Assembly: GCA_027449865.1 (NCBI GenBank)
Contig: DAIDKV010000206.1
Coordinates: 1-64,000, forward strand
From: Planctomycetales bacterium
GTDB taxonomy: Bacteria; Planctomycetota; Planctomycetia; Isosphaerales; Isosphaeraceae
Direction of reading: 5' to 3'
Length of the DNA: 64,000 bases
Part shown: piece after piece, positions 38,023-46,643 of the stretch
How positions within the stretch are numbered: position 1 is the stretch's first letter
Layout: each line of letters starts with the position of its first letter
Made by a program: the position numbers and the translations under genes
Notes under the pieces: model-generated
The model's input: only the letters and a program-made list of their open reading frames with translations
The model's database searches: none
Told to the model about the DNA's origin: nothing

Positions 38023-39213
38023 TCAACGATCCTTCAAGGGACGCACTCGGTACAGAGCCTGCTGGATCTCCGGATCGAGCGGATCGAGGGCCAGCGCGAG
38101 CTGATACCAGGCGCGTGCCTCCGGAAGCTGGCTCAGGCTCTCACAGACTTCCCCGAGCCGCCGGAGCAGGCCCCTGTCGCGCCGGATGTTGTGAACATGC
38201 GCCTCCTGGAGCAGGCTCGTGAGCCGTCGCCAACGAGCCGCTCGCTTTTGCGCGGCTCCGGCCCCCTCGTCGCCAAGCCGTGCCAGCGCGGCAGCGCGTC
38301 CCTCGGCCGCTTCGCGGCTGTTCGGATCCAGCCGGAGGGCGATCTCATACTGCCGGGCGGCCTCCTCGGGATTTTTGGATTGGATCGCGAAATGCCCCCG
38401 GAGCAGGGCAAGACCGGTATGATCCACGGGGCCTCCGTCGAGCAGCGACCGGACCTCGTCCAGTCGGAGCCGTCCCAGCGCGATTCGGGCGTGGAGGGTT
38501 CGCACATCGGGATCGGAATCGGGGAGATCCCTGAGCAGGGTCTCGGCGGCCTCCAGCTCGTTGGAGTGCAGCAGAACGCCCGTCAGGGCCAGCCGGCTCG
38601 CGCGATCGTCCGGATCGGCGGCGACGTATCGTTCCAGGTGGGGCCGGATCCGGTCGTTGACCCAGGTGTCCTCAAGGCTATTCGACCAGAGGAAGACATC
38701 GTCGAAGCCGAGAGGCGACTGCTCGGCCAGAGCCCGATACTGGGCCTGGAGCTCGCCGCGACGGGCCTGCATCGCATACAGGAAGATCAACTCCCGGCGG
38801 GCCTCGATCAGCCCGGGATCCATCCGGATCGCGTCGAGGAAGAGGCTTTCCATCCGTCGGGCACGATCGCGGCTCTTCTCGATCTGACCGGCAATGAGCC
38901 GGGCCTGAGCCGCGCGATCGTCCGACCCAGGTATCCCGACAAGCAACTCGACGGCCCGATCCGAACGGCCCCGGCCCAGCTCCAGTTCGGCCCAGAGAAC
39001 CGCTTCGTCGATCCCGGGCGTGCGCTGCCTCGCCAGCCTCCCCAACAAGCTCTCGGCCCGCGACCACTGACGTTCCTTGAGCGCCTGCCGGACCTCCTCG
39101 GCCATCGCCTCGGAATCCACGGGAACCCGGGCGCGGATCGCGGCAGTCAGGCCGGCGATCCCGAGAAGCGAGACCACGGCGATGAACCATGCTTTCCGAC
39201 CAGGGTGAACCAT
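38023..39213 (-). CDS. membrane-anchored TPR protein
   Basis: This 396-residue protein has one N-terminal membrane helix (about 8-26) followed by TPR-like repeats throughout, for example 'ALKERQWSRAESLLGRLARQ', 'LLVGIPGSDDRAAQARLIAGQIEKS' and, at the end, 'CESLSQLPEARAWYQLALALDPLDPEIQQALYRVRPL'. It is read in the same direction as the multiheme cytochrome gene and begins about 117 bases after its stop, so the two may form an operon. The related TPR gene on the opposite strand ends 9 bases away. The protein probably faces outward and works as a docking platform for other envelope proteins. Confidence 0.85.
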   Translation of the reverse strand: MVHPGRKAWFIAVVSLLGIAGLTAAIRARVPVDSEAMAEEVRQALKERQWSRAESLLGRLARQRTPGIDEAVLWAELELGRGRSDRAVELLVGIPGSDDRAAQARLIAGQIEKSRDRARRMESLFLDAIRMDPGLIEARRELIFLYAMQARRGELQAQYRALAEQSPLGFDDVFLWSNSLEDTWVNDRIRPHLERYVAADPDDRASRLALTGVLLHSNELEAAETLLRDLPDSDPDVRTLHARIALGRLRLDEVRSLLDGGPVDHTGLALLRGHFAIQSKNPEEAARQYEIALRLDPNSREAAEGRAAALARLGDEGAGAAQKRAARWRRLTSLLQEAHVHNIRRDRGLLRRLGEVCESLSQLPEARAWYQLALALDPLDPEIQQALYRVRPLKDR

Positions 39214-39330: not shown

Positions 39331-41232
39331 TCAATGGACCGCCGCGGCGCCGCTCGACGTCGAAACCGCTTCTCGGATACGAATCAAATGGTCTGTCTTG
39401 AAGGAATGCGTCGACTCGGACCAGATCCGCGGCATGTGACACCCGAGGCAGCCCTTCGACGCATCCACCGGACAGAACACTCCCGACCGACCCCGTTCGG
39501 GCCGATCTCCGGCCGGCGCCGGTGCCGATGTCCGACCGGGCGAATGGCAGGCGAGGCATTTCGCCTCGTTGCTGACGAGGGATGTCTCGGCGTTGCGATG
39601 CGGATCGTGGCAGGTCACGCAGCCCAACGCCCCGGCGCTTTCGATGTAGCATCGGCTCCAGGTCATCGTCAAGGACTGGAACCGGAGCAGGCTCGGATCG
39701 GTCCTGGGAAGGTCGGGAGCGAGGGAGGGCCGGCCGCCGTGGCACTTCGCGCAGATCCGATCGCTGATCGACGGCGGCTCCTTGGCACGGGCGACGATCG
39801 TGGGATCGTGGAAATCCGCCTGGGCGGCCACAACGTGGTTCCCGCCCGGCCCATGACACCCCTCGCAGCCGATCGAGGGATCCCGAGCCGCGGGGCCCGT
39901 GTCGTGGACGATGGCATGGGGGTCGGTCGTGTGGCAGGTGAGGCATCGGCGCACGCCATCCCCCTGGAGCATGCTCAGACCCAGATACTCGGCCTCCTTC
40001 GCCGGTTGGCGCGGCAGGCCGGTGGCGACGTCCCAGCCGGAGCCCCGGGGGGACTGGTACGGGCTGACCCGGATCATGACCGAACCACCGGAATTCTCCC
40101 GGCCGACGAATGTCATCAGATGATCGCGAGATCCGAACGCATAGTCGATGACGGCCTGAAAGACATGTTCGTTCGCCCGGGTCTCGACGACCACCGAATC
40201 CCCCTCATGCCGGAACCGGTGGGTGACGCCGGGATCGCCCGGGTCTTGCAGGGGAGCTCGGGGCCAGGCGAAGTCTTTCAGGTCGCTGGCTCGCGAGAAG
40301 GTCGTGGCGTGCCGGCTGGCGCGAACGGTCCGGGCCAGTTCGCGATGGCAATCGGCACAGCGAGCCGATCCCACGTAGGGGGCCGGCTCGGGTTCAATCG
40401 GATTCTCCAGGCGATACGAGGTGCTCTTCTCTCGCGCGACCTCGGCCTGATCCCACTCCTCGCGCTGGATGAAGCCGCGGCTGAGAAGCCAGTAGGCTTC
40501 GGGATCCTTGCTGGTCCTGGGAAGCGCCTCAAGGATTTCGGTAGCTTCCGCGGGCCGGCCTGTTCGGAGCAACGAAACGGCGAGAAGCTTCTGGAACGAG
40601 GCAACCTGGATCGGAGCGACGGAGCGACCTTCGGGATCGAGTTCCAGGGCACGCCGCAGAGCCCTCACGGTGCCGGCGTGGTCGTGAAGCTCGGAGCGAA
40701 TGCCGCTCAGGAGGAACTGGGCCTGAGCCTCCGATCCCGGCTGTCTGACGAGGCGCTCAGCCAGTTCCTCGGCGGTCTGGTATCGGTCGTTTCTGGCGTA
40801 GAGAGCCACCAGCGCGGCGAGAGCCTCGGGATGATCCGGATCGCGTTCGAGAGCCGATTGGTACTTTTTGAAGGCCGGGTCCGTCTGGCCGGTCCTCAGG
40901 AGGGCTCGTCCGAAGAGGAAGAGATCCTCGGCCTCCTGGTTCGCGGCGTCCACCCGGCGATAAAGGGCGAGGGCTCTCTGGTTCTCATCGGCCCGAGCGG
41001 CCGCCCGGGCCGCCAGTCGCATCGCGAACGGATCGTCAGGAACCGCCTTCAACCGTCGATGGGCCAGGTCCCCAGCCCGGTCCCATTCGCCCCGAGAGTA
41101 GGCCATCCCCGCCTGCGCGTTCAACGTCGGGAAGATCCGCTCATACGCCAGAGCGAGGGCCGAGACACCGCCCAGCCCCAGCGCGCCGAGGAGAAGCAGC
41201 CAGCGACGGCGCCGTTTTACCGAATACGGCAT
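39331..41232 (-). CDS. TPR protein with seven c-type heme sites
   Basis: This 633-residue protein combines an N-terminal membrane anchor (about 11-30), a TPR region (about 36-270) and a heptaheme cytochrome domain. The heme-binding CxxCH motifs begin at residues 292, 430, 456, 494, 538, 559 and 595. A conserved histidine-rich segment between 340 and 370 ('THRFRHEGD', 'NEHVF') may supply distal ligands. Such TPR-multiheme proteins are common in planctomycetes and Acidobacteria, often near CRTAC1 (ASPIC/UnbV) genes, but none is present here. The anchor places the hemes on the outer face of the inner membrane, so electron transfer in the envelope is likely. The downstream gene encodes another TPR protein. 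Confidence 0.92.
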   Translation of the reverse strand: MPYSVKRRRRWLLLLGALGLGGVSALALAYERIFPTLNAQAGMAYSRGEWDRAGDLAHRRLKAVPDDPFAMRLAARAAARADENQRALALYRRVDAANQEAEDLFLFGRALLRTGQTDPAFKKYQSALERDPDHPEALAALVALYARNDRYQTAEELAERLVRQPGSEAQAQFLLSGIRSELHDHAGTVRALRRALELDPEGRSVAPIQVASFQKLLAVSLLRTGRPAEATEILEALPRTSKDPEAYWLLSRGFIQREEWDQAEVAREKSTSYRLENPIEPEPAPYVGSARCADCHRELARTVRASRHATTFSRASDLKDFAWPRAPLQDPGDPGVTHRFRHEGDSVVVETRANEHVFQAVIDYAFGSRDHLMTFVGRENSGGSVMIRVSPYQSPRGSGWDVATGLPRQPAKEAEYLGLSMLQGDGVRRCLTCHTTDPHAIVHDTGPAARDPSIGCEGCHGPGGNHVVAAQADFHDPTIVARAKEPPSISDRICAKCHGGRPSLAPDLPRTDPSLLRFQSLTMTWSRCYIESAGALGCVTCHDPHRNAETSLVSNEAKCLACHSPGRTSAPAPAGDRPERGRSGVFCPVDASKGCLGCHMPRIWSESTHSFKTDHLIRIREAVSTSSGAAAVH

Positions 41233-41561: not shown

Positions 41562-42359
41562 TCACTCCGGCCCCTCGTAGACCGTCCAGCCCTCCGCGGC
41601 GGCATTGCGCTGCAAGACGTAGCGGGCGTCGTCGGCAAAGAGCCAGGCGACGAAGAGGCCCGTCAGCGCCCCGCCGACATGCGCCAGGTACGCCACCCCT
41701 CCCTCGCTGGCCCCGGTCCGAAACGCCCCGGCACCCATCCAGATCTGGAGGGCAATCCAGACGCCGATCACAATCCAGGCTGGCATCACCGTGATGATCT
41801 GAAAGAACAGCACGCGCATCTCGTTATGTGGAAACCAGAGGACGTACGCTCCCATGATCCCCGCGATCGCGCCCGAGGCCCCCAGGGTTGGGATCTCCGA
41901 CATCGGATTGGCCGCGATCTGCAAGAGCGACCCCATCAGCCCGCATGCCAGGTACACCAGAAGATACCGAACCGAGCCCAGCACCTCCTCGACGTTGTCG
42001 CCGACGATCCAGAGATACAGCATGTTCCCCAGCAGGTGCAACCAGCTTCCGTGCAGGAACATCGAGGTCAGGAGCGTCCACCGAACCGGGATCGGGCAAG
42101 GGTAATGCTCGATCGGGCGCCCAATCCACTCGCGATGTCGGCCGAAGGCGTCGCGGACCGGCCCCTGAACCACTCTCACGATCGGCTCATCAAGGTCGAG
42201 GTTCTGGGTGACCTCCACGGGCGTCATCGCGAAGGCCCGCGTGAATTCCTCGCCGCGATCCTGCTGCACCAGAAAAATCGTGATATTCGTGGCGATCAAT
42301 ATATAGGTGACAATCGGAACAATCCGAGTACGCTGCATGTCGCCGAGCGGGAGGACCAT
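41562..42359 (-). CDS. rhomboid family intramembrane serine protease
   Basis: This 265-residue polytopic protein cleaves membrane-spanning substrates within the bilayer. The catalytic dyad is Ser162 in 'GASGAIAG' and His227 in 'AHVGGALTG', with the supporting Asn112 in 'HLLGNMLYLW' and His108 from 'SWLH'. About six membrane segments are visible. A long loop between the first and second segment (about 40-90) is typical of the group. Substrates are unknown. It lies downstream of, and in the same direction as, the Ldh-like gene, 33 bases apart, possibly cotranscribed. Confidence 0.93.
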   Translation of the reverse strand: MVLPLGDMQRTRIVPIVTYILIATNITIFLVQQDRGEEFTRAFAMTPVEVTQNLDLDEPIVRVVQGPVRDAFGRHREWIGRPIEHYPCPIPVRWTLLTSMFLHGSWLHLLGNMLYLWIVGDNVEEVLGSVRYLLVYLACGLMGSLLQIAANPMSEIPTLGASGAIAGIMGAYVLWFPHNEMRVLFFQIITVMPAWIVIGVWIALQIWMGAGAFRTGASEGGVAYLAHVGGALTGLFVAWLFADDARYVLQRNAAAEGWTVYEGPE

Positions 42360-42391
42360 GATCGGGGCTCATCGGTATGGGGAAGACGAGG

Positions 42392-43243
42392 TCACGAGCC
42401 AACGGAGGGAACAGGTCCACCGCCGATCGCCGCGGGAACTTCGATGGCGAACCGGCGCGCCCATTCCACCAGCGACTTCCACGCCGAGGCGCCCACGGTG
42501 ACGCCCCTCGATCGGGCCTCTCGACGGCGGACCTCCCAGGTCTCGGGCAGCAGACGGCCAGGAGCCTCGCCCAGTCTGCCCGCAACCTCGGCCAGCCGCC
42601 GATCAAACGCGGTGAGCGACTCCAGCGCCGGTACGGAAACCGCCATCAGGAGCCAGCCGCCTTCCGGTACCAGGACTTCGCTCGCCGCCCAGAAACCTTC
42701 CAGACGCGACGGGCGGGCCAACCGGCGCTCGCCCAGGGCGGCCAGGCCCGTGTCCAGAATCATCGGCAGCCCGCCCTCGGAGGGGAGGGCCAGGCTCCAG
42801 GATCGCCCCGGCCCCAGCACAGCGCCGGCCATCGGGCCGATGGCGATCCCCGCCGCCACCGCCGCGGTGGACTCCATCGGTCCCGCCCCGACCACCCGAA
42901 CCATTCCGACTGCCGCGTCACGCGCCTTCTCGACGGCCATCCCCGCGGCCCGTTCCAGCACGAGCGGAGCCGGTCCCTGCTCGCCATCGAGCAATGCCAG
43001 CGCCGTCCGCTCCTGAGTCACCCGACCCCTCGCCGACGGATCGACCCGACCCGCCGACATCGCCTCCAACCAGGTCGGCAACGTGGCGATGCCCAGCGAA
43101 GAGGCACCCGCCGCATCAAACCAGAGCAGTTGCGCGACGAGCGCCAGCGACCGCGGGCCGGATAATCCGACGGCCTCGCCCATCGCCACGCCGAAGCGGC
43201 GTAAATCGTCGAGCCCGTATCGATGGGTCACGGCCGCCGACAC
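42392..43243 (-). CDS. Ldh_2-family protein lacking catalytic histidine motifs
   Basis: This 283-residue protein aligns with malate/L-lactate dehydrogenases of the Ldh_2 (type 2 malate/lactate/sulfolactate dehydrogenase) family: an N-terminal helix 'GVAMGEAVGLSGPRSLALVAQLL', then 'TALALLDGEQGPAPLVLERAAGMAVEKARDAAVGMVRV', a segment equivalent to 'FVLDMATS' ('MILDTGLAAL') and a reduced C-terminal half. However, the usual 'HDSHG' reads 'AGASSLG', and the usual 'NSNHFG' reads 'GAGPMES', so the catalytic histidines are absent. The length is also about 60-70 residues short. It is probably a pseudoenzyme or a protein with a different activity. It stands immediately upstream of the rhomboid gene. Confidence 0.65.
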   Translation of the reverse strand: MSAAVTHRYGLDDLRRFGVAMGEAVGLSGPRSLALVAQLLWFDAAGASSLGIATLPTWLEAMSAGRVDPSARGRVTQERTALALLDGEQGPAPLVLERAAGMAVEKARDAAVGMVRVVGAGPMESTAAVAAGIAIGPMAGAVLGPGRSWSLALPSEGGLPMILDTGLAALGERRLARPSRLEGFWAASEVLVPEGGWLLMAVSVPALESLTAFDRRLAEVAGRLGEAPGRLLPETWEVRRREARSRGVTVGASAWKSLVEWARRFAIEVPAAIGGGPVPSVGS

Positions 43244-43338: not shown

Positions 43339-43890
43339 TCAGAGGACCGGCCGGATCGGTCGACCGATGGGGGAACCCTCGGACTCGAGCTTCTCCCACT
43401 CGCGACGAACGCACGAGAGCCCAAACGCGCAGAGCTCGAACTCATCGCTCAAACGTCGGTAAACCGAGCTCATGAAGCTTCCCGAGCTGAGCCGGCTGGC
43501 CACATAATACGACCGGCGCCCCTGTTCCTGGTAGTCGATCAGGGCATCCGGGGAATGCTCCCGGCGCAACCGGCCGAGAGCCTCGGGATAGACACCCGTC
43601 CAGAAGAGCGTAAAATCGCCGATGTGCCGGTGGCACTCACGCTTCCGGTCGGCGTCGCCGGCCGCCTCGGCCTCGGCGACCATCCGGGTGACTTCCACAA
43701 GCGCCCGCCCCTGGGCGTCTCGAATCCGCCCCAAAGCCTGGCTCGGGACAAACTGCGCCAGTAGCCCAGCGACATACTGCACCAGCGAGGGGTCGCCGAT
43801 GCCCAGCTCGTTCATGAACGCGTATTCCGCCAGCCCGCGGAAAAGGCGGTGCAGCGGGTGCGACTCCGAGATCGTGCGCAATGGTTCCAT
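43339..43890 (-). CDS. conserved-looking hypothetical protein
   Basis: This 183-residue soluble protein is predominantly helical: 'LFRGLAEYAFMNELGIGDPSLVQYVAGLLAQF' is followed by 'ECHRHIGDFTLFWTGVYPEAL' and 'YVASRLSSGSFMSSVYRRLSDEFELCAFGLSCVRREWEKL'. It contains no signal peptide, membrane segment or catalytic motif that I recognise. GAGGAG precedes the ATG. It is divergent from the beta-CASP nuclease gene across a 339-base gap. Reasonable codon usage and an intact frame support a real gene. Function unknown. Confidence 0.7.
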   Translation of the reverse strand: MEPLRTISESHPLHRLFRGLAEYAFMNELGIGDPSLVQYVAGLLAQFVPSQALGRIRDAQGRALVEVTRMVAEAEAAGDADRKRECHRHIGDFTLFWTGVYPEALGRLRREHSPDALIDYQEQGRRSYYVASRLSSGSFMSSVYRRLSDEFELCAFGLSCVRREWEKLESEGSPIGRPIRPVL

Positions 43891-44229: not shown

Positions 44230-45615
44230 TTGCGAATCACTTTTCACGGCGCGACCCGCCAGGTCACTGGCAGTGCCCACCTGCTGGAGATCGGCTCGAA
44301 GCGAATCCTGCTCGATTGCGGGCTGTTTGACTCCGAGCGCATCCATCCCGAGAGCCCCAACCGGCACTTCGCCTTCGACCCCCGAGATCTCGACGCGGTC
44401 ATCGTCTCGCACGCCCATAACGACCACATCGGGCGGCTTCCCCTTTTGATCCGAGCCGGCTACAACGGGCCCATCTTCGCCACTCCCGCCACCGCCTCGA
44501 TCACCAGCGTGATGCTCCGCGACAGCGCCCGCATCCAGCGCGAGGAGGTCCGTAACGCCCACATCAAGTATCCGCACCTGGAATCGGTCGAGCCCCTCTT
44601 CGAGCTCGTCGACGTCGAGTGGCTCATCGAGCGGATGCAACGCATCCCCTACCAGACCCCGATCGAGGTCGTTCCAGGCGTCAACCTGACATTCCTCAAT
44701 TCGGGCCACATCCTTGGTTCGGCGATCGTGCAACTCGACTACCGCGAGGACGGCCGACCCCGCCGGTTCGTCTTCACCGGCGACCTCGGACGTCGCGATA
44801 CCCACCTGCTGCCCGACCCGGCGATCGTGAAGGATGTCGACGTCCTGGTCTCCGAGAGCACCTACGGAAGCCGCGAACTCGAACCTTACGACCGGTTGGT
44901 CAAGCAGCTTCACGCGATCGTGGCGCGGGCGATCCGGCTGGAAGGCAAGGTCGTCATCCCGGCGTTTAGCCTGGGGCGGACCCAGCGCATGGTCTACTGC
45001 CTCCAGGAACTCTTCGCGATGCACAAGGTCCGGCCAATCCCGGTCTTTGTCGACAGCCCCCTGGCTCTCCGGCTGACCGAGATCCACCGTGACCACCCCG
45101 AGGCGTACACCCCGATCGCACGCGAGCTGATGGACCGCGACCCGCTGTATTTCGGCTCGAAGCATGTCGAGTTCTGCGCGACCTGGGACGACTCGCGACG
45201 GCTGAACTACATGCGGGGCCCCATGATCATCATCGCCTCGTCGGGGATGTGCGAGGCAGGTCGAATCCGCCACCATTTACGGCACGTCGTGAGCGATCCC
45301 GACAACGCCGTGGTGATCGTCAGCTACCAGGCCGAAGGAACCCTCGGCCGACAGATCGCCGAGGGGGTCGAGCGGATCCAGATCTTCGACCAATGGTACG
45401 ACCTCAACGCGGCCGTCTACGTCCTCGACGGCTTCTCCGGCCACGCCGACCGCAACGACCTCGGCTGGTGGTACGAGCAGACCGGTGGCAGCATCGAGAA
45501 CGCCTTCCTCGTCCACGGCGATCCCGAGGCGATCGACGCCCTGACCCCAGTCCTTCAACCCTTCGTCCAGAACACCGTCCACACGCCCGAGCTGCACCAG
45601 TCGTACGAGGTCTGA
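44230..45615 (+). CDS. beta-CASP metallo-beta-lactamase-fold ribonuclease
   Basis: This 461-residue protein has an N-terminal metallo-beta-lactamase domain with the metal motif 'HAHNDHIG' (HxHxDH), a beta-CASP insert and the C-terminal RMMBL 'YVLDGFSGHADRNDLGWW', i.e. the archaeal/bacterial CPSF-like group (YSH1/RNase J-like), which processes RNA. The early 'ITFHGATRQVTGSAHLLEI' is a hallmark of the class, as are 'TGDLGRRDTHLLPDPA' and 'IIIASSGMCEAGRI'. I chose the TTG at 44230 because GGGAGG precedes it by about 10 bases and the beta-strand 'LRITFHGATRQVTGS' begins directly there; an ATG farther upstream in frame exists. Substrate RNA is unknown. Confidence 0.9.
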   Translation: MRITFHGATRQVTGSAHLLEIGSKRILLDCGLFDSERIHPESPNRHFAFDPRDLDAVIVSHAHNDHIGRLPLLIRAGYNGPIFATPATASITSVMLRDSARIQREEVRNAHIKYPHLESVEPLFELVDVEWLIERMQRIPYQTPIEVVPGVNLTFLNSGHILGSAIVQLDYREDGRPRRFVFTGDLGRRDTHLLPDPAIVKDVDVLVSESTYGSRELEPYDRLVKQLHAIVARAIRLEGKVVIPAFSLGRTQRMVYCLQELFAMHKVRPIPVFVDSPLALRLTEIHRDHPEAYTPIARELMDRDPLYFGSKHVEFCATWDDSRRLNYMRGPMIIIASSGMCEAGRIRHHLRHVVSDPDNAVVIVSYQAEGTLGRQIAEGVERIQIFDQWYDLNAAVYVLDGFSGHADRNDLGWWYEQTGGSIENAFLVHGDPEAIDALTPVLQPFVQNTVHTPELHQSYEV

Positions 45616-45989: not shown

Positions 45990-46643
45990 TCAACCGCGCT
46001 CGGGAGGCGAGTCCACCAGCCATCCGCCATGGATGCGCGGGCCAGGCGGCTGGGCGGCGATCGTTTGAGCCTCGATCCGAAGCATCTCGTCCCAACGTGA
46101 TCCGACCTCGTCCGGCTCGGCGACGGATTCGGCGAGTCGCAGGAAGACCCGGTAATGGCCCAGCTCCGACGACCAGAGCCGGCGATAGAATCGCGCGAGG
46201 ACCGGGTCGCGGTCCTGGCAATAGGTCGCGAGGAGCCGGAACCGCTCGCACGATCGCAGCTCAATCAGCGCTGAGATCAGCAGGCGGTCGAGGAGTTCCT
46301 CGGGCCCCTGGCCCTTGCGCACTTGCTGGCGAAGGTCGCGGGCGTAATCGTTCCGGTGGGTGCGATCGAGTTGTCCCCCGCGCTCGTTCAGAAGGCGGAC
46401 GACGCCGCTGAGGTGCCCGGCCTCGTCGCTCGCGACGGCGGCGAGGCTGCGGGTCCACTCCTCGGGTCGGGTGGGCTCGGGCCACCGGTTGAGCAATTCG
46501 AGGGCGTTGGCGGCGGCCTTCTTTTCCAGGTAGGCGTGATCGCTGAGGAGTGCCCTCGGGTCACTCATCGCGATCTCGGCCCAGGCGTCTGGAGTCCGGG
46601 TCAGGAGGGGTAGGTCGTCAGGCGTCGGGTCGTTCTCGATCAC
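45990..46643 (-). CDS. miaE: MiaE-like tRNA-(ms2io6A) hydroxylase
   Basis: This 217-residue ferritin-like di-iron protein fits the MiaE family, which hydroxylates the isopentenyl group of ms2i6A in tRNA. Iron-ligand helices are visible: 'SDHAYLEKKAAANALELLNRW' with the E-x6-7-H-like pattern, 'SLAAVASDEAGHLSGV' with D/E-x2-H, 'LISALIELRSCERFRLLATY' and 'WSSELGHYRVFLRLA' with E-x2-H. Length is normal. It is convergent with the small hypothetical gene. miaA and miaB are not in the window. Confidence 0.85.
   Translation of the reverse strand: MIENDPTPDDLPLLTRTPDAWAEIAMSDPRALLSDHAYLEKKAAANALELLNRWPEPTRPEEWTRSLAAVASDEAGHLSGVVRLLNERGGQLDRTHRNDYARDLRQQVRKGQGPEELLDRLLISALIELRSCERFRLLATYCQDRDPVLARFYRRLWSSELGHYRVFLRLAESVAEPDEVGSRWDEMLRIEAQTIAAQPPGPRIHGGWLVDSPPERG

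Follow-up and report, generated by a model that had tools for sequence, protein, structure and literature searches.

The window, a stretch of 64,000 nucleotides, carries on its minus strand, in this order, the genes UP, LDHP and a rhomboid-family protease, with a β-CASP metallo-β-lactamase gene pointing in the opposite direction beyond UP (UP, for upstream neighbour, and LDHP are names used here). LDHP (42392–43243, minus strand, GTG start at 43243) encodes a protein of 283 residues with the Ldh_2 fold, which we interpret as a pseudoenzyme. UP (43339–43890, minus strand) ends 95 bases before LDHP and encodes an uncharacterised helical protein of 183 residues. The rhomboid gene (41562–42359, minus strand; 265 residues; Pfam PF01694, E 4.1e-38) encodes a GASG motif at residue 160 and His227; it lies downstream of LDHP across a gap of 32 bases (42360–42391), one fewer than the 33 counted in the original prediction for this gene. 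The divergent metallo-β-lactamase/β-CASP/RMMBL gene (44233–45615, plus strand, start approximate) matches PF10996 (E 1.8e-36) and PF07521 (E 2.2e-11). A promoter scan returned a single promoter-like site, which is on the opposite strand, and a terminator scan returned no terminator-like site. Around this group, 39331–41232 (minus strand) encodes a single protein that combines TPR repeats with a multihaem cytochrome region (CXXCH), 38023–39213 a further TPR protein, and 45990–46643 (minus strand) a MiaE-type tRNA hydroxylase (PF06175, E 3.1e-37).

Ldh_2 is the only Pfam family matched by the window copy of LDHP (PF02615, E 1.2e-18, residues 12–118 on profile positions 4–110), at 67.8 bits and thus above the curated cut-off of 38.8, in agreement with the Ldh_2 pattern first noticed in its sequence. 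All 21 orthologue places pass the same cut-off, and Ldh_2 is the sole Pfam family at E<=0.01 in every one. Matches to NCBIfam equivalog models are weak and far under their cut-offs, and each of the seven matches among PDB sequences is an Ldh_2-type enzyme; Pfam, NCBIfam and PDB sequence and fold searches yielded no other family as the true match. The frame is intact, as had been proposed, and is kept as a single open frame of 258–305 codons in all 21 orthologues, with the flagged stops sitting at the frame end or just beyond. Two plus-strand open reading frames, of 445 and 262 residues, cover LDHP. They were rejected as the coding frame because the differences between the window and its relative G002, at 21, 12 and 56 for the three codon positions of the minus frame, are concentrated at third positions, and because the homology lies in the minus frame.

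Active-site positions are given in AllD numbering through the model TIGR03175 (349 positions), on which LDHP residues 26–117 align with profile positions 20–111 at an offset of 6. His116 was placed by extending this offset beyond a match that stops five residues before it, and the order of the motifs GTNP, IDMAT and HKGY, rather than an alignment of AllD itself, served to place Thr156, Pro158, Asp174 and Lys224. In place of the HDSHG motif, LDHP has ASSLG (residues 47–51; 43091–43105, minus strand), the end of an AGASSLG stretch (residues 45–51), with Leu50 at the His44 position. In place of NxNHxG it has GAGPME (residues 119–124; 42872–42889, minus strand), with Pro122 at the His116 position under the same offset. 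The original prediction had read AGASSLG where HDSHG, and GAGPMES where NSNHFG, would be expected, and both readings are exact.

These positions were compared with 45 ordinary Ldh_2 rows, representing 44 different proteins since one gene occurs twice (L032 and L066); for this set 32 further loci (L065–L096) were considered, with L089, an open frame of 159 residues near a contig end, omitted. The ordinary rows have His44 in 45, His116 in 44, Asp174 in 45, Pro158 in 42, Lys224 in 42 (the other 3 have Arg), Thr156 in 35 and Arg48 in 34. The single departure at His116 is L077 (G368:C273), a homologue outside the LDHP clade with Trp at this position (NTSWIAG) and His44 kept, perhaps a second, independent histidine loss. 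Unlike these enzymes, none of the 21 LDHP orthologues has His116, Thr156 (a gap in one alignment; Gly, Asp, Cys, Asn or Ala in another) or Pro158, and the Lys224 column is deleted in all of them. Arg48 is kept in two (G026 and G008), and the His44 position is occupied by Phe in 11, Leu in 6, His in 2 (G043 and G026) and Asn and Gln in 1 each. The proposed joint loss of both histidines therefore describes the window copy and 19 of the 21 orthologues, but not the two that keep the His44 equivalent. Asp174 is the one cofactor-site position among those compared that is widely retained (19 of 21; D164 in the window), and a residual ligand could be bound there.

In the AllD paper (PMC3527362), His44 and His116 are termed invariant among the structures aligned, and the conserved residues of the cofactor site are given as His44, His116, Thr156, Pro158, Asp174, Lys224 and Gly306, with Asp174 contacting the cofactor ribose. 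The same text reports that the mutants H116A and R48A are completely inactive and that H44A retains low activity (kcat of 1.76 versus 57.06 per s). By analogy with H44A, loss of His44 by itself would not be fatal, which counts against reading LDHP as a pseudoenzyme. LDHP nevertheless lacks the pair of invariant histidines of an active Ldh_2 dehydrogenase as well as most of the cofactor site, and from these residue losses we infer with high confidence that it has no dehydrogenase activity. The name malate/lactate dehydrogenase that Pfam-based annotation would assign to it is very probably wrong.

The Ldh_2 family (PF02615) comprises L-sulfolactate dehydrogenase-like NAD(P)H oxidoreductases such as AllD, YiaK, DpkA and the type 2 malate/lactate dehydrogenases (PDB entries 1v9n and 1vbi). 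An AlphaFold2 model of LDHP, computed from the 21-row orthologue alignment, has a mean pLDDT of 91.0 and a pTM of 0.89, and it resembles these enzymes over most of its length, with a helical Domain I, a central β-sheet and C-terminal helices in addition to the sequence homology. At E<=0.001, a Foldseek search of the PDB with the model retrieved 27 chains, each from an Ldh_2-type enzyme; the next match had an E-value of 0.058. VIA-align superposes the model (range 3–270) on 1v9n with a Z-score of 28.1 over 262 residues at 2.6 Å, and the Z-scores against 15 PDB entries of Ldh_2 type range from 22.3 to 28.1. Since the C-terminal helices are aligned and the match extends over 262 residues, the fold appears to be kept in the predicted structure, C-terminal helices included.

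The protein had been described as short in its C-terminal part; the shortening instead stems from two internal deletions. The spacing from His116 to Asp174 is 41 residues in all 21 orthologues as against 56–60 in the 45 ordinary rows, and from Asp174 to the next strand (residues 197–203) it is 22–58 residues (32 in the window) as against 84–104. The overall length is accordingly 258–305 residues in the orthologues and 337–364 in the ordinary rows. In the alignments, residues 164–195 (42656–42751, minus strand) comprise the retained D164 and a short stretch in place of three elements of the ordinary enzymes, namely Domain III, the Lys224-bearing HKGY motif and the helix behind that motif; confidence is low around residues 171–180 of the model (block mean pLDDT of 51). 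With domains mapped from the description in PMC3527362, Domains I and II match in LDHP and Domain III, which in AllD contains helix 6 (residues 179–194), is absent by alignment. By the same mapping, the deleted helix after HKGY would be AllD helix 7, which according to that paper slides into the other subunit of the dimer; active Ldh_2 dehydrogenases dimerise through helices 7 and 8.

Orthologues of LDHP are present in 21 of the 45 genomes of the window's family (286–395 bits with the alignment profile; next match 73.1 bits), and a search of the order gave the same 45 genomes. They are missing from the other 24, some of which are incomplete, and none was found in G003 (77% complete), one of the five genomes of the genus. 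Across 343 genomes of the phylum nothing came near the orthologue scores (best other match 74.7 bits versus 286–395), in a scan that scored at most seven candidates per genome at a cut of E 1e-8 and may thus have missed distant orthologues. A collection of named genomes, searched for close relatives only and possibly lacking genomes very near the window's, contained one orthologue (L036) and one distant ordinary Ldh_2 protein. In a tree with the 45 ordinary rows, the 21 orthologues form one clade with SH-aLRT support of 100, computed with a quick method without a mixture model and with long-branch warnings, and this places the shared loss on a single change. G026, which retains both His44 and Arg48, branches close to the clade base in a weakly supported placement; tentatively, His116 and the two deleted stretches may have gone before the other losses. 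LDHP thus offers an example of NAD site loss within one bacterial family, with His116 gone from all 21 copies and His44 surviving in two.

In 54 alignment columns, at least 18 of the 21 orthologues share the same residue, and in 22 of these columns that residue is rare (<=25%) among the 45 ordinary rows. The clade-new residues include Trp41, Trp58, Arg116, Gly136-Pro137, Glu208, Trp236 and Arg240, and they constitute a new conserved signature rather than a simple loss. They also bear on the possibility that LDHP is a re-purposed enzyme, whose Ldh_2 scaffold would bind another ligand or catalyse another reaction through Arg116, Asp164, Glu208 and Arg240. Several of the 22 columns are charged, Asp164 is kept in 19 of 21 orthologues and the predicted fold is confident; however, no His or Cys is found among the 54 conserved columns, the window copy has a single His (His7) and no Cys, and Pro158 and Lys224 are gone throughout. 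We regard such a re-purposed enzyme as unlikely, although it is the strongest of the alternatives to a non-catalytic pseudoenzyme.

A dead paralogue may also act through a live one. LDHP could be a regulatory subunit of an active Ldh_2 dehydrogenase encoded elsewhere in the genome, and a further Ldh_2 match is present in 19 of the 21 genomes with LDHP. The precedent is the trypanosome AdoMetDC prozyme, a catalytically dead protein that activates its live paralogue (PMC6221367); LDHP resembles it in being conserved and homologous to an enzyme family while missing the catalytic residues. Unlike the prozyme, LDHP needs no live paralogue in the same genome: G008, assembled as a single contig, has LDHP but no other Ldh_2 match, and an active Ldh_2 partner is therefore not required there. 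The same holds for the matches found in G017 (81% complete). Of the 24 family genomes lacking LDHP, 20 likewise have an Ldh_2 match, and the deleted stretch is the one that, by mapping, carries the AllD dimer helix. Such a subunit is accordingly a rather improbable role for LDHP.

Nei–Gojobori dN/dS values for LDHP are 0.235, 0.291, 0.236 and 0.079 in four pairs, compared with 0.038–0.149 for UP in the same pairs and 0.075–0.188 for the rhomboid in three of them (in the fourth, the rhomboid is not on the loci read). LDHP exceeds UP in four of four pairs and the rhomboid in three of three, and is therefore constrained, but less so than its neighbours. The higher ratio, together with the absence of LDHP from 24 of 45 genomes and its seven changes on the neighbour-gene tree described below, is what would be expected of a former dehydrogenase under relaxed constraint and heading for loss. 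Such decay is very hard to reconcile with an open frame in every orthologue, with ratios as low as 0.08–0.29 and with new residues conserved throughout the clade. The catalytic residues are lost across the whole orthologous clade while purifying selection is seen in all four pairs; the low dN/dS and the 22 clade-new columns therefore argue that LDHP is a maintained, re-purposed pseudoenzyme, and the original prediction of maintenance rather than decay is supported at the level of sequence.

The neighbourhood is conserved to different degrees. UP has a match in 41 of the 45 family genomes and the rhomboid, at E<=1e-25, in 39. Among the 21 genomes with LDHP, UP is always on the same contig and in 16 lies within 400 bp on the same strand (by tblastn extents). 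In the other five, the gap is 0.8 and 1.2 kb (G043 and G011), 3.9 and 5.1 kb (G015 and G013) or about 22 kb with UP on the opposite strand (G014). The rhomboid follows within 160 bp downstream on the same strand in 14 and not in G010, G011, G012 and G039–G042, so the linkage to the rhomboid on which the original prediction had remarked is shared by two-thirds of the orthologues, and UP is the more constant partner. UP is thus a closer companion of LDHP than the rhomboid is. The partnership is not strict, because the gap to UP exceeds 400 bp for five of 21 copies (4–22 kb for three of these), and because 20 of the 45 genomes have UP but no LDHP. Downstream of the seven orthologues without an adjoining rhomboid, no partner is common to all seven. 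Four g20 genomes (L171, L172, L176 and L193) have a small convergent open reading frame of 149–159 residues in the rhomboid's place, which by eye looks like a repeated ACT-type domain protein.

That the rhomboid protease has LDHP as its substrate or accessory, as the directly downstream position in 14 of 21 genomes and the GASG motif and His227 of the protease might suggest, is highly improbable: LDHP has no clear membrane span, its most hydrophobic 19-residue stretch (residues 126–144, score 1.67) being a helix plus a strand of the predicted fold, and three of the seven genomes in which the linkage is missing have no rhomboid match at E<=1e-25.

Among the 24 genomes of the family that lack LDHP, UP and the rhomboid are less than 1 kb apart on one strand in 17 (under 500 bp in 15, and just under 1 kb in G032 and G044); in the remaining seven, a UP and/or rhomboid match is missing or the two are on different contigs. 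No remnant of LDHP was detected between UP and the rhomboid in G044, which belongs to the same genus as the LDHP-bearing G043 (best tblastn E 0.34, blastn E 0.21). In a tree built from the UP, rhomboid and metallo-β-lactamase sequences of 42 genomes, with the root chosen on g18, the presence of LDHP requires seven changes, five of them forced by starred branches. Given these changes and its absence from 24 of 45 genomes, LDHP is dispensable. Since its copies form one clade and occupy mostly one place, the simplest history would be a single insertion into the UP–rhomboid pair followed by several losses.

Drawing on the homology, predicted fold, residue losses, single clade, purifying selection and gene neighbourhood computed here, we consider the best overall explanation, with a probability of about 0.65, to be that LDHP is a maintained pseudoenzyme with a cofactor-free binding or regulatory role. 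A gene for an Ldh_2-type NAD(P)-dependent dehydrogenase would have come between the UP and rhomboid genes in an ancestor of some members of a single planctomycete family. Its product would have lost the catalytic base and most of the cofactor site; loss of the Lys224 stretch would also have removed the helix after it, which by mapping is the one that holds the AllD dimer together. The helical domain and central β-sheet would have been retained while new conserved residues became fixed. Without cofactor, LDHP would then serve as a binding or regulatory subunit, a scaffold, for the product of UP or for UP and the rhomboid together, through an interaction face that formerly carried NAD and the second subunit. 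A new non-catalytic role of some kind is probable. A physical partnership between LDHP and UP is plausible at slightly less than even odds, and we offer only as a speculation the fuller picture, in which a former dehydrogenase without its cofactor domain and dimer helix is a monomer that serves UP and the rhomboid as an adaptor in an undescribed planctomycete membrane-associated module. No Ldh_2-family pseudoenzyme was found among the literature matches listed, which cover the literature in part.

The neighbourhood points to testable partners of LDHP, among them UP, an orphan protein whose relatives also occur in further bacterial families of the class. For the window copy of UP no Pfam match was found at E<=0.1, with weak scattered matches in at most four of 22 rows; its model is helical and confident (pLDDT of 88.7) and had no fold match in the PDB at E<=0.001. 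Among 246 genomes beyond the family, eight from the class have a UP match at E<=2.4e-41, and a further eleven matches are weaker. At ten UP loci outside the family, of which L216 stops at a contig end just after UP, a search at E 1e-3 gave neither a rhomboid nor an LDHP match; the metallo-β-lactamase gene is present at one. UP is 97% identical to its counterpart in G002 and shares 42–51% identity with seven rows that belong to other families in the class, with His89, Gly91, Asp92, Gly124 and Tyr128 invariant, and represents a good target among orphan families.
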